DNA from: Cryobacterium sp. SO1
Lineage (GTDB): Bacteria > Actinomycetota > Actinomycetes > Actinomycetales > Microbacteriaceae
Length of the DNA: 64,000 nucleotides
Reading direction: 5' to 3'
Assembly (NCBI RefSeq): GCF_004210215.2
Contig: NZ_CP067394.1
Coordinates: 248,001 to 312,000, forward strand
Numbering within the stretch: position 1 is the stretch's first letter; each line of letters opens with the position of its first letter. Below are positions 14,287-18,817 of this stretch, piece by piece. The notes under the pieces are model-generated. The model saw nothing but the letters and a program-made list of their open reading frames with translations, was not told where the DNA came from and did not search any database. The translations under genes and the position numbers were made by a program.

Positions 14287-14841
14287 GGCAGTGGCTATTC
14301 TTTCGTGCACCCGATCCTGGGCGGTCCGTCGGAGGTGACCAGCGTCGACAGCACTCCGGTGCTTCCGTTCGGGCACGGGCTGAGCTACACCACCTTCGAC
14401 CGCACCGGATTGACGGCCGACACCGAGGTCGCGGCCGGCGGCACGTTCTCGGCGAGTGTGCGCATCCGCAACACCGGCGGGCGGGCCGGCACCGACCTCG
14501 TGCAGCTTTACGCGCGGGATGTGCACGCCAGCGTCACCCGGCCTGTCGCTCAGTTGCTCGGGTACCACCGCCTGACGCTCGAGCCCGGCGACGAGGCCGT
14601 GGTGCGCTTCGAGGTTCCGACGGCCCGGCTGGCGTTCACCGGCCTGCGGCACGAGCGCATCGTCGAACCCGGCCGGGTGGACCTGTGGGTCGGTGGTTCG
14701 TGCGCGGACAAGCAGACCGAGACCGGCATCACCATCACCGGGGCCGTGCACCGGGTGACCCTGGCGGATGGCCGCCTGGTGTTGAGCACGGCCGAGCGGA
14801 TGGCGGAGCCGTCGCGGGGGACCGAGCCGGTGCCGGTTTAG
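14287..14841 (+). pseudogene. Glycoside hydrolase family 3 beta-glucosidase, C-terminal remnant
   Basis: About 184 codons match the C-terminus of GH3 beta-glucosidases. The segment YSFVHPILGGPSEVTSVD leads into PVLPFGHGLSYTTF, followed by a fibronectin type III-like domain with VRIRNTGGRAGTDLVQLYARD. The whole catalytic N-terminal part is absent. It abuts the thuA remnant head to head, so one deletion probably removed the 5' halves of two divergent genes and the promoter region between them. Confidence 0.82.
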
Positions 14842-15414: not shown

Positions 15415-16641
15415 ATGACGACGCAGCCAGGCTCCGCGGCGGTCATCGTCGGGGGAGTGAGCGGGAGTCGCGGATCCCGGCGGCCGGAGGACCTCGGGCG
15501 GCTGGCGCACCTCGCCGAGGCGGCCTGGGCCGTGGACGGCAACGCCGAGCGGGCCATCCGGTTCGCCGTGGCAAAGGGTGTCGGACTGCCGCAGCCCGGC
15601 TCCGGCCACACCGTTGCCCTGTTCGACGCCCTCGCCACAGTGGCCGCGGCCGACCTCACTGCCGCCAGGGTTCTCGAGGCGCACAAGGATGCCCTCGCGA
15701 TTCTGCAGCAGGCCCCGGGGCCAGCCAGCACGGTTCTGACGCGCACTGTCCCCGCCAGCACTGTCCCCGCCAGCACTGTCCCCGCCAGGGCCGTCCCCGC
15801 CATCGCCGTCCCGGACAGCACGGTCCCGGCCAGCGCCGTCCGGACAAACCCAGCCTCGGCCAGCTGGGGTGTCTTCGCGGCGGAGGGTCGCGGCCAACGG
15901 GTCGACGCCATCAGCACCCCGGCCGGCTGGCGGCTGAGCGGCCGGAAGCCCTGGTGCTCGCTGGCCGGGTCGCTCAGCCACGCGCTGGTCACCGCACACA
16001 CCACGACGGCGGGCGCGGAGCCGGCCCGGCGGCGGCTGTTCGCCGTTGACCTGGTCGACCCGGGCATCACGGTGCGGCAGGACGCCTGGTTCGCGACGGG
16101 ACTCGTCGAGGTGACCAGCGGCCCGGTGGACTTCGCCGGGGTTGCCGCGCTGCCCGTCGGAGACGACGGGTGGTACCTCACCCGGCCCGGGTTCAGTTGG
16201 GGCGGTATCCAGGTGGCGGCGTGCTGGTTCGGCGGCGCCGTGGGCGTGGCGAGGCACCTGCGCACCGCCGCCGCACAGCGGTCGGCCACCGGCGGGCGGG
16301 AACCCGACCAGATCCTGCTGGCCCACCTGGGCGCGGTGGACCTGGCGCTCAGGGGCGCTGGCGCCGCCCTGTTCGACGCCGCCGGGGCAATCGACCGGGG
16401 CGAGGCCGTCGGTGATGCCGGCGCACTGTTGGCTGCCCGGGTGCGCGGGCTCGTCGCGCGCACCGTGGACGAGGTGCTCTCCAGGGTCGGGCACGCGCTC
16501 GGACCGGCCCCGCTCGCTCTGGACGCCCGGCACTCCCGCCGGGTGGCCGACCTCAGCCTGTATATCCGTCAGCACCACGCTGAGCGGGACGACGCCGCGC
16601 TCGGCAGTCGCCTGGTTGCGGAGGAGGCGCCGTCATGGTGA
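15415..16641 (+). CDS. Acyl-CoA dehydrogenase-like protein, first gene of an uncharacterised cluster
   Basis: A 408-residue flavin-dependent acyl-CoA dehydrogenase-family protein. The central region (WGVFAAEGRG, then GWRLSGRKPWCSLAG) resembles the beta-domain, and the C-terminal part (about 250-400) is alpha-helical. GGGGAG precedes the ATG at 15415. The usual catalytic glutamate is not obvious, so the reaction may differ from fatty-acid oxidation. Residues 111-140 are a 15-bp minisatellite giving TVPAS repeats, probably a flexible loop. Its stop overlaps the PIG-L/methyltransferase start by 7 bases, so the cluster is translationally coupled. Confidence 0.82.
   Translation: MTTQPGSAAVIVGGVSGSRGSRRPEDLGRLAHLAEAAWAVDGNAERAIRFAVAKGVGLPQPGSGHTVALFDALATVAAADLTAARVLEAHKDALAILQQAPGPASTVLTRTVPASTVPASTVPARAVPAIAVPDSTVPASAVRTNPASASWGVFAAEGRGQRVDAISTPAGWRLSGRKPWCSLAGSLSHALVTAHTTTAGAEPARRRLFAVDLVDPGITVRQDAWFATGLVEVTSGPVDFAGVAALPVGDDGWYLTRPGFSWGGIQVAACWFGGAVGVARHLRTAAAQRSATGGREPDQILLAHLGAVDLALRGAGAALFDAAGAIDRGEAVGDAGALLAARVRGLVARTVDEVLSRVGHALGPAPLALDARHSRRVADLSLYIRQHHAERDDAALGSRLVAEEAPSW
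15745..15834 (+). repeat. In-frame 15-bp minisatellite (six units)
   Basis: Units of ACTGTCCCCGCCAGC at 15745, 15760 and 15775, then three diverged units at 15790, 15805 and 15820. They code for TVPAS and variants inside the acyl-CoA dehydrogenase-like gene. Unit length is a multiple of three, so gain or loss of units keeps the frame. Confidence 0.85.
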
Positions 16642-18116
16642 CCTTCACGCATCGCAGCGGCGGCACGAGCGAGCGGGTGTGGAACGACGCCGACTGGTCT
16701 GCCCGCATCCGGCCGTTGGCGCTGGCGAGCTGCGGCCGTCTCATCGTGGTGGCCGCGCACCCCGACGACGAGTCGCTCGGCGCCGGCGGTCTGATCGCCA
16801 TCGCCGGGCAGCTCGGGCTGGGCATCACGGTGATCCTGGCCACGAACGGTGAGGCGTCGCACCCGCGCTCACCCACCCTCACCCCGGCGGACCTGGTCGC
16901 CGTGCGCCGGGTGGAGATGGTGAACGCGGTGAGCGCACTGGCGCCGGCGGCGATGGTGCGCCTGCTCGACCTGCCCGACGGCGACCTGACCCAGCACCGG
17001 AACAGCCTGGAGGAAGCGCTCGCGGCCGAGCTAGCGGCGGAGCTGCCGGGTGCCGGGACCGCCGACGCCACCTGGGTTGTCGCCCCCTGGCGCCTGGACG
17101 GGCATCCCGACCACGCGGCCGCGGGCGAGGTGGCGGCGCTCGTCGCGGCCCGCACCGGCGCCAGACTGCTCGAGTACCCGATCTGGGCGTGGCATTGGTC
17201 GTCGCCCGGGGATCCGGTGTGGGCCACCGGGCACGGCACCGGGCTGTGGAGCCTCGAGCTGGATGCGGCGGCGCGGCAACGCAAGAACACCGCGATGGCG
17301 GCCCACACGAGCCAGGTGCAACCGCTGTCCGATCGGCCCGGAGACGAGGCGATCGTGCAACCGGGTTTCGCCGCCCATTTCGAACGATCCCGGGAGCTCT
17401 TCATCGGCGCCGCCGACGAGCCGGCGCACGGTCCACACGACGACGACGCCGGCGCCACGCCGAGCAGCAGGCCGAGCAGGCCCGGCAGCACGACGGATGC
17501 CGCGGCGCCGCAGAGCCTCTCCGCCGGGTTCTTCGACGACTTCTACGCCGGCTCGAGGGATCCCTGGGGCTTTGAGACCCGGTGGTACGAGGCCCGCAAG
17601 CGCGCGCTCACCCTGGCGGCGTTGCCCCTGCCGCGGTACAGCGCCGCCCTCGAGCTGGGCTGTTCCATCGGTGTGCTCAGCCGGGACCTCGCCGACCGCT
17701 CCGACACCCTGCTCGCCACCGACATCAATGAGCAGGCGCTCGCCGTGGCCCGAGAGCGACTCACCGACTTGCCCGGCGTGCGGGTGGAGCGGTGGGCCTT
17801 GCCCGGGGAATGGCCGGCGGGCACCTTCGACCTGGTGGTGCTGTCCGAGATCGGCTACTACTGCTCGCCGGCAGACCTGGCCGTTCTCCTCCAGCGCTGC
17901 CGGCAGAGCCTCGGCCCCAACGGCACGCTGGTGGCCTGCCACTGGCGGCATCCGGTGGGCGAATACCCGCTCGGCGGCGACGACGTGCACGCGGCGCTCG
18001 CCGCCCTGCCCGGACTGGACCGCACCGTGCAGCACCTCGAACGTGACTTCGTGCTGGAGGTCTACGAGCCCAGCCCGGCCCCCTCCGTGGCCCAGCGGGA
18101 AGGGCTGGTCTCGTGA
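16635..18116 (+). CDS. PIG-L family deacetylase fused to class I SAM-dependent methyltransferase
   Basis: A 493-residue two-domain protein. The N-terminal PIG-L/LmbE zinc deacetylase (about 30-265) shows AHPDDE at 41-46 and DGHPDH at 155-160, the metal ligands used to deacetylate N-acetylglucosamine-containing substrates. A disordered linker leads to a NodS-like methyltransferase (about 295-485) with the SAM loop ELGCSIG at 340-346 and a TDIN motif. The ATG at 16635 lies inside the previous gene, and the stop overlaps the next gene's GTG (GTGA). The fusion implies that deacetylation and methylation act on one amino sugar or glycolipid made by this cluster. The true substrate is unknown. Confidence 0.88.
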   Translation: MVTFTHRSGGTSERVWNDADWSARIRPLALASCGRLIVVAAHPDDESLGAGGLIAIAGQLGLGITVILATNGEASHPRSPTLTPADLVAVRRVEMVNAVSALAPAAMVRLLDLPDGDLTQHRNSLEEALAAELAAELPGAGTADATWVVAPWRLDGHPDHAAAGEVAALVAARTGARLLEYPIWAWHWSSPGDPVWATGHGTGLWSLELDAAARQRKNTAMAAHTSQVQPLSDRPGDEAIVQPGFAAHFERSRELFIGAADEPAHGPHDDDAGATPSSRPSRPGSTTDAAAPQSLSAGFFDDFYAGSRDPWGFETRWYEARKRALTLAALPLPRYSAALELGCSIGVLSRDLADRSDTLLATDINEQALAVARERLTDLPGVRVERWALPGEWPAGTFDLVVLSEIGYYCSPADLAVLLQRCRQSLGPNGTLVACHWRHPVGEYPLGGDDVHAALAALPGLDRTVQHLERDFVLEVYEPSPAPSVAQREGLVS

Positions 18117-18817
18117 CGCACCGCATCGACCGGCTCATCGTGGTGGTGCCTGCCCGCAACGAGGAGAGCCGGCTGCCGCGGTGCCTGGCGGCTCTGGCCG
18201 ATGCCGTGCAGGCCGTGCGGGACGAGTTCGGCGCCGACACCCCGACCATCTCGGTCGTCGTGGTGCTCGACCGCTGCACCGACGGCTCGGCCGATGTCGT
18301 GGCGCGATGGCCGCAGTTCCGTGCGCTGGAAAGCGAGGCCGGGTCGGTGGGATCCGCCCGCCGGGAGGGGGTGGCCCACCTGCTGACCGCCGGAGCCGAC
18401 ACCAGCACCTGGGTGGCGACGACGGATGCCGACTCCGCGGTTCCCCGGCGATGGCTGGCGGTGCAACTGGCCCTGGCCCAGGCGGGCACCGAGCTAGTGC
18501 TCGGCACCGTGCTGCCCGACGAGGAGCTTGCGGTGCCGGAGCGGGCCCGCTGGCACGACTCGCACACCCTGGTCGACGGGCATCCGTACGTGCACGGCGC
18601 CAACCTGGGCGTGCGCGCCGACCGCTACCTGCAGGCGAACGGGTTCAGCGACGTGGACTCAGACGAGGACGTGCTGTTGGTGGCGGCGCTTCGCGGCCTC
18701 GGCGCTCGTGAGTGCCGTACCGCGCTCATCCCGGTGCTCACCTCCGGTCGGCTGCGCAGCCGGGTGCCGGGGGGATTCGGCGGCTACCTCGCCGGACAGG
18801 TCGCGGCAACACGCTGA
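18113..18817 (+). CDS. Family 2 glycosyltransferase
   Basis: A 234-residue GT-A fold glycosyltransferase. It has VVVPARNEES near the N-terminus, the nucleotide-sugar site VVLDRCTDGSA (50-60) and a DAD motif at 105-107. No membrane segments are evident. The GTG start overlaps the stop of the deacetylase/methyltransferase gene by 4 bases. It ends the three-gene cluster; the next gene is convergent. Donor and acceptor are unknown. The neighbours suggest that it transfers a sugar to, or from, an intermediate that is also deacetylated, methylated and carries or once carried an acyl group. Confidence 0.87.
   Translation: MTHRIDRLIVVVPARNEESRLPRCLAALADAVQAVRDEFGADTPTISVVVVLDRCTDGSADVVARWPQFRALESEAGSVGSARREGVAHLLTAGADTSTWVATTDADSAVPRRWLAVQLALAQAGTELVLGTVLPDEELAVPERARWHDSHTLVDGHPYVHGANLGVRADRYLQANGFSDVDSDEDVLLVAALRGLGARECRTALIPVLTSGRLRSRVPGGFGGYLAGQVAATR

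Follow-up and report, generated by a model that had tools for sequence, protein, structure and literature searches.

A conserved gene cluster of Cryobacterium sp. SO1 with a fused PIG-L deacetylase and NodS-like methyltransferase, possibly for amino-sugar tailoring

In Nod factor synthesis (PMC6415152) the sugar chain comes from NodC and the deacetylation of its end residue from NodB, while NodA is the acylating and NodS the N-methylating enzyme. By class, a glycosyltransferase, an N-deacetylase and a NodS-type N-methyltransferase are likewise encoded by a cluster of three overlapping open reading frames (ORFs) on the plus strand of Cryobacterium sp. SO1, whose genome is a single contig of 4.07 Mb. 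The cluster occupies positions 15415 to 18817 of the window analysed here, i.e. the whole stretch of 64,000 nucleotides from 248,001 to 312,000 of contig NZ_CP067394.1, to which all coordinates refer unless a related locus is named. Unlike the Nod factor pathway, it uses a PIG-L enzyme instead of the CE4 deacetylase NodB, a CE4 gene being found beside the module in one relative (locus L116); its GT2 glycosyltransferase is small, devoid of a membrane span and not a chitin synthase, and its fourth member is a flavoprotein of the acyl-CoA dehydrogenase (ACAD) fold (NodA was not searched for).

In the mycothiol and bacillithiol pathways (MshA/MshB and BshA/BshB) a PIG-L deacetylase acts after a glycosyltransferase, as it may here, but the module pairs PIG-L with a GT2 enzyme, a methyltransferase and a flavoprotein, and its scores against the MshB and BshB models are far below cut-off. 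The ACAD fold of the flavoprotein is shared with the sugar N-oxygenases KijD3, DnmZ and nitrososynthase 3mxl (ORF36); DnmZ and KijD3 act in antibiotic-sugar biosynthesis. However, the module protein is only about 17-20% identical to KijD3 and DnmZ, and deoxysugar genes are absent from the immediate neighbours scanned. It also resembles the DszC, TdsC and SfnB monooxygenases, although the model scores remain below cut-off and no sulfur genes occur among the neighbours scanned. Taken together, the module appears as a variant of a glycosylate, deacetylate and modify logic.

Organization of the cluster and its putative sugar-modifying enzymes

The cluster is real and conserved, and the enzyme list of the original prediction, made from the DNA alone, holds up apart from what the first gene does. 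This gene (15415..16641, +) ends with its stop at 16641 and has two candidate starts, ATG 15415 and GTG 15325, of which the former follows GGGGAGAGCT, a sequence plausible as a ribosome-binding site. It overlaps the fusion gene (16635..18116, +) by 7 nt (16635..16641), a spacing shared by 61 of 80 related loci, and the fusion gene in turn overlaps the GT2 gene (18113..18817, +) by 4 nt (18113..18116). The predicted overlaps of 7 and 4 bases are thus borne out by the ORF coordinates, which support the claim that the three genes are made together by co-translation.

That a deacetylase and a methyltransferase are fused in one chain was also correctly foreseen. The PIG-L N-deacetylase half (16635..17420, +) carries intact AHPDDE and HxDH motifs and is joined through a disordered linker (fusion residues 266-289, 17430..17501, +; predicted local distance difference test score, pLDDT, below 50) to the NodS-like half (17517..18104, +), an S-adenosylmethionine (SAM)-dependent methyltransferase by class. 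In Pfam the chain matches PIG-L with 77.2 bits, Methyltransf_12 with 45.9 bits and NodS with 31.9 bits (cut-off 24), and its predicted structure has a mean pLDDT of 88.1 and a predicted template modelling score (pTM) of 0.60. Residues H42, D44, D45, D159 and H160 of the PIG-L motifs are invariant in all 24 aligned fusions (from 80 fetched), HPDDE was found in each of nine separate PIG-L proteins checked, and the SAM motifs, on inspection, are intact. The nearest solved relatives are 4isc, NodS (3ofk), LnmX, diacetylchitobiose deacetylase and MshB. The methyltransferase half is most similar to 4isc (49% identity), a Pseudomonas syringae structure titled 'putative methyltransferase', followed by NodS 3ofk.

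A closer assignment of the PIG-L part as a mycothiol or bacillithiol deacetylase was rejected on scores of 21.5 bits for MshB, 38.7 for BshB1 and 30.6 for BshB2, where 224.35, 182.5 and 195.25 bits are called for. The NCBIfam NodS equivalog model gives 40.8 bits against a cut-off of 300.

The third gene encodes a GT2 enzyme as predicted (Glycos_transf_2, 51.0 bits, cut-off 23.3), with the motif residues T104, D105, A106 and D107 (TDAD) as well as E185 and D186 (ED) invariant in 20 of 20 aligned members. No clear membrane span is found in any of the three proteins: the best 19-residue hydropathy is 1.37 for GT2 and 1.47 for the first protein, and the peak of 1.93 in the fusion (residues 51-69) falls on one helix and one strand that belong to the globular core in the model.

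The first protein as a probable flavin monooxygenase

Pfam scores for the first protein are sub-threshold (Acyl-CoA_dh_M 28.6 bits, cut-off 33.3; Acyl-CoA_dh_1 19.7 bits, cut-off 22.4), and a six-frame search gives a weak match to Acyl-CoA_dh_1 just above the cut-off (22.9 bits). The AlphaFold model has the ACAD fold (mean pLDDT 86.5, pTM 0.87), its fold scores not separating dehydrogenases from monooxygenases. In a single-sequence search of the PDB the top match is the nitrososynthase DnmZ (E 5.8e-4). A profile built from 35 members matched 47 solved structures, of which the nine top matches are flavin-monooxygenase types, led by DszC (8.6e-16), TdsC (1.6e-14), 5gj7/5z8t (1e-13) and methanesulfinate monooxygenase 6u76 (3.3e-13), with KijD3 (3m9v and 4kcf, 6.4e-12) in eighth and ninth place. 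The first ordinary dehydrogenase is 2dvl (1.3e-11); 3mxl (1.2e-8) and DnmZ (1.7e-7) rank among the dehydrogenases, which form most of the remaining matches. Among NCBIfam models, relatives from Nostoc fit DszC best (2e-22) and those from Deinococcus SfnB (7e-23), both below cut-off.

The position facing the YEGT base of a dehydrogenase encoded in the same genome is occupied by Glu in none of the 35 aligned members and by His in 23; as the alignment stops 8 residues short of the YEGT Glu, the position was reached by ungapped extension. At the presumed alternative base site in helix G, Glu occurs in 6 of 35 members. The Trp of the DszC segment 'DDWAAIGM' is retained in 33 of 35, but the module residues facing DszC His92 and Tyr96, presumably important positions, differ in the profile alignment.

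Since Glu is missing from the aligned base position and the top profile matches are monooxygenases, the first protein is, judged by sequence, probably monooxygenase-like. Class D flavin monooxygenases are defined by the ACAD fold (PMC6165268). The module protein is a candidate member of this class, with that fold and with monooxygenases as its closest sequence relatives. On the same grounds (Glu in 0 of 35 members and nine best profile matches of monooxygenase type), the suggestion that the first gene handles an acyl or CoA-linked group is probably wrong, and the deposited label 'acyl-CoA dehydrogenase', which points to fatty-acid metabolism, probably misleads.

The SO1 protein also contains a low-complexity insertion of TVPAS/AVPA-type repeats (residues 112-142, 15748-15840), mostly with pLDDT below 50. 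None of the 34 further proteins in the alignment, to which the closest relatives L004 and L005 do not belong, shows it.

Conservation, recurrence on plasmids and stress-gene neighbours

The related loci are the best 80 of 242 relatives from a genome-collection scan with the fusion protein, a ranking by fusion similarity that biases the sample towards complete loci. They include Micrococcales, Nakamurella and a record named Sphaerisporangium, the nearest named fusion relative being that of Cryobacterium lactosi (91% identity). With tblastn all three proteins are matched in identical order in 80 of 80 loci, and full ORFs are present for all 80 fusions and for 78 each of the ACAD-like and GT2 genes; the GT2 gene of one locus (L070) extends past the contig end. 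The 7-nt spacing, scored from the ACAD stop to the aligned fusion start, could not be scored in six loci, four with other coordinates and two without an ACAD ORF. In Cryobacterium sp. Y82 (L015, 5813-7721) and Y11 (L024, 5804-7727) the fusion is intact while the ACAD-like and GT2 genes are fragments only, apparently through natural partial loss or assembly effects.

Because the order is kept in every fetched locus, the set stands together beyond chance. Separation of the genes in relatives, which the original prediction had named as counting against it, was looked for, and in the fusion-fetched loci the set is kept. Among 120 relatives taken without a fusion pre-filter, 45 of 57 same-genus genomes, SO1 included, match at E 1e-60 or better. 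In an evenly drawn phylum sample of 198 genomes, a match at E 0.001 turns up in 132, for the most part a weak one of PIG-L-like or methyltransferase-like kind, and 20 match at E 1e-20 or better. A larger conserved operon was considered and rejected: clustering of flanking ORFs in 49 of the 80 loci gave no gene common to more than six genus groups, and the clusters, to which no functions were assigned, are small and in several cases probably artefacts of overlapping frames. Upstream of the SO1 cluster, at 14296-14841, a GH3 beta-xylosidase/arabinosidase is left as a C-terminal remnant that covers about 165 of 750 profile positions and adjoins a GFO/IDH/MocA gene on the opposite strand; both matches are also neighbours in locus L008.

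The functions also recur as separate genes on plasmids of other groups. In tblastn searches of plasmids the fusion matched 76 records, the ACAD-like protein 30 and an Acinetobacter methyltransferase 115, annotated NodS proteins included; 19 Acinetobacter records of the plasmid collection matched. Twenty-one plasmid regions, from Deinococcus, Proteobacteria, Kitasatospora, Nostoc and others, were inspected with profiles for the four functions. Fourteen of them (L105-L109, L111, L112, L114, L118 and L120-L124) hold all four, as separate genes, within about 7 kb. By profile, GT2 is absent from L110 and L119, and L113 lacks PIG-L, with a PIG-L gene annotated 3 kb off on the other strand; L115, L117 and L125 hold a methyltransferase and a glycosyltransferase only. 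In all 17 inspected plasmid records with both enzymes, deacetylase and methyltransferase have a gene each, and the two genes mostly overlap or adjoin.

The Rubrobacter indicoceani plasmid L116, where no PIG-L gene was found, has a CE4 polysaccharide deacetylase gene next to those for the ACAD-like and NodS-like proteins, and in Gloeothece (L125, 3955-7431) a single chain is annotated as a trifunctional glycosyltransferase/methyltransferase/polysaccharide deacetylase. Since CE4 replaces PIG-L in the former and is part of the chain in the latter, this suggests that the conserved feature is hexosamine de-N-acetylation and not one deacetylase family. The PIG-L family is presumably that classified as CE14. 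Characterised chitooligosaccharide deacetylases are mostly CE4 enzymes, the archaeal and Bacillus cereus ones belonging to CE14 (PMC6415152). In L116 (4954-9605) an oxidoreductase of pyridine-nucleotide-disulphide type also joins the ACAD-like, NodS-like and GT2 genes. The Deinococcus ACAD-like proteins (L105, 4584-6947; L119, 1193-3532) carry about 410 extra N-terminal residues without a Pfam match, and an ACAD-like relative of about 29% identity is encoded in two large records that go under the name 'Acinetobacter phage MD-2021a' (CAKLQH020000004.1, 106064-106774; CAKLQF020000002.1, 125317-126027).

Of the 20 annotated plasmid regions, 11 have genes for OtsA/OtsB, catalase, LigD, Dps or ferritin-like proteins within about 7 kb and nine have none (L112 has no annotation). 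The module is flanked by otsA and otsB in Comamonas L114 and L124; it lies beside otsA/otsB with a catalase gene near in Acinetobacter L107, and beside otsB and a GH65 gene in Legionella lytica L118; other plasmid modules have catalase, LigD, Dps or ferritin-like genes nearby. In proximity tests on the 19 of 21 records that were searched whole, which were run after inspection and are descriptive, the 10-kb neighbourhood of the module includes OtsB in 4 of the 6 records that have it (0.67 expected, P 0.001; the pair from Comamonas in this count is closely related) and catalase in 5 of 12 (1.08 expected, P 0.002).

For Actinomycetota the catalase family was fixed before the search, the 10-kb limit not being recorded beforehand, and 19 of the 20 genomes matching at E 1e-20 or better were used (G184 was left out); 15 further genomes were searched and left unscored as their contigs were not tied to loci. 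Catalase is found within 10 kb in 2 of 9 genomes having it (L131 and L132; 0.08 expected, P 0.003), one of the two at 9.1 kb, and L132 also has a DNA ligase gene nearby. Both modules are partial by profile, L131 showing ACAD and PIG-L only and L132 lacking PIG-L. OtsB within 10 kb on the same contig was found in none of the 19 genomes. The stress link is thus a lead, strongest on Proteobacteria plasmids; because the plasmid modules tend to be found near trehalose and catalase genes, the product may help some lineages to survive stress. Reports on desiccation in Curtobacterium (PMC12029717) and in Acinetobacter Tol 5 (PMC13130816) mention acyl-CoA dehydrogenases or glycosyltransferases, which could not be tied to the module.

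The proposed pathway and its alternatives

We tentatively propose, at slightly less than an even chance, that the cluster encodes a co-translated and mainly cytosolic amino-sugar tailoring pathway, with a product possibly for stress survival in some lineages. The GT2 enzyme would transfer an N-acetylated hexosamine onto an acceptor, the PIG-L half would strip the acetyl group, and the fused NodS-like half would methylate the freed amine, the intermediate staying close by. The ACAD-fold flavin monooxygenase would then oxygenate the product, most simply at the amine. This would be the simplest fourth step, the nearest amino-sugar precedents being the chemistry of KijD3, ORF36 and DnmZ. Sequence and predicted fold are the basis for the enzyme classes; substrate, order of steps, oxidation site and product are what we infer.

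Two observations weigh against this proposal. A Glu residue, E390, is kept in 24 of 35 members three residues past the expected base site of the first protein, which lowers confidence in the monooxygenase assignment. At the SO1 locus, moreover, neither catalase nor OtsB is near, both lying far off in the genome, and a stress island at this locus itself was rejected on that ground. With E390 so close to the expected site, the first protein might be a true acyl-CoA or acyl-carrier dehydrogenase giving an unsaturated acyl group to the amine, the result being a lipid-linked amino sugar of the kind seen in Nod factors. Its fold fits dehydrogenases at least as well as monooxygenases, the lower-ranked profile matches are mostly dehydrogenases, and the weak match to Acyl-CoA_dh_1 just passes its cut-off in the six-frame search. 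Against this stand the missing Glu at the aligned base, its rarity at the presumed helix-G position, the monooxygenase types among the top matches and the DszC and SfnB models that suit the Nostoc and Deinococcus relatives best, if below cut-off. Dehydrogenase function was set aside as the leading reading on the two grounds given above for the monooxygenase assignment, some doubt being left by E390, and the acyl-donor pathway as a whole seems unlikely.

Somewhat less improbable, yet still doubtful, is a role in modifying a membrane or cell-envelope glycan or glycolipid, in which GT2 would attach a sugar to a lipid or wall carrier, deacetylation and methylation would follow and the first protein would adjust the lipid tail. 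GT2 enzymes often make envelope glycans, and further glycosyltransferase genes lie near the module in Sphingobium/Novosphingobium, in Deinococcus (with glf) and in L132. The lack of a clear membrane span in all three proteins, of a Glu at the expected dehydrogenase base and of a widely shared flanking gene in the 49 loci clustered speaks against it. The methylated amino-sugar glycolipid or envelope glycan guessed at in the original prediction may still be the product in this sense, but no part of the GT2 enzyme is hydrophobic enough to span a membrane. We give little credence to a fragment of secondary metabolism that works with genes located elsewhere to make or tailor a sugar for an antibiotic-like compound: antibiotic pathways do include relatives of the PIG-L and sugar N-methyltransferase parts, namely LnmX, Dbv21 and the gentamicin methyltransferase, as well as DnmZ and KijD3, but the module is spread over most same-genus genomes and several phyla, and no polyketide or peptide megasynthase is named in the 20 annotated plasmid regions, L105 having one 3-oxoacyl-ACP synthase III-like gene.

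The amino-sugar tailoring pathway preferred here has, as the original prediction supposed, no characterised counterpart that a module-directed search of open-licence literature could find. Its product could conceivably, if rather speculatively, be an undescribed stress-protective amino-sugar glycoside, N-methylated and possibly N-oxygenated (hydroxylamine or nitrone), built by the glycosylate, deacetylate and modify logic of mycothiol, bacillithiol and Nod factors. Plasmids and chromosomes of Actinomycetota, Deinococcota, Proteobacteria and Cyanobacteria would then encode it in common. The four enzyme activities recur jointly in several phyla, with no characterised product found, and the fusion makes the coupling of deacetylation and methylation directly testable in one protein. 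If the product is a general-stress metabolite, the module would represent a conserved branch of amino-sugar chemistry with a reach comparable to that of bacillithiol.

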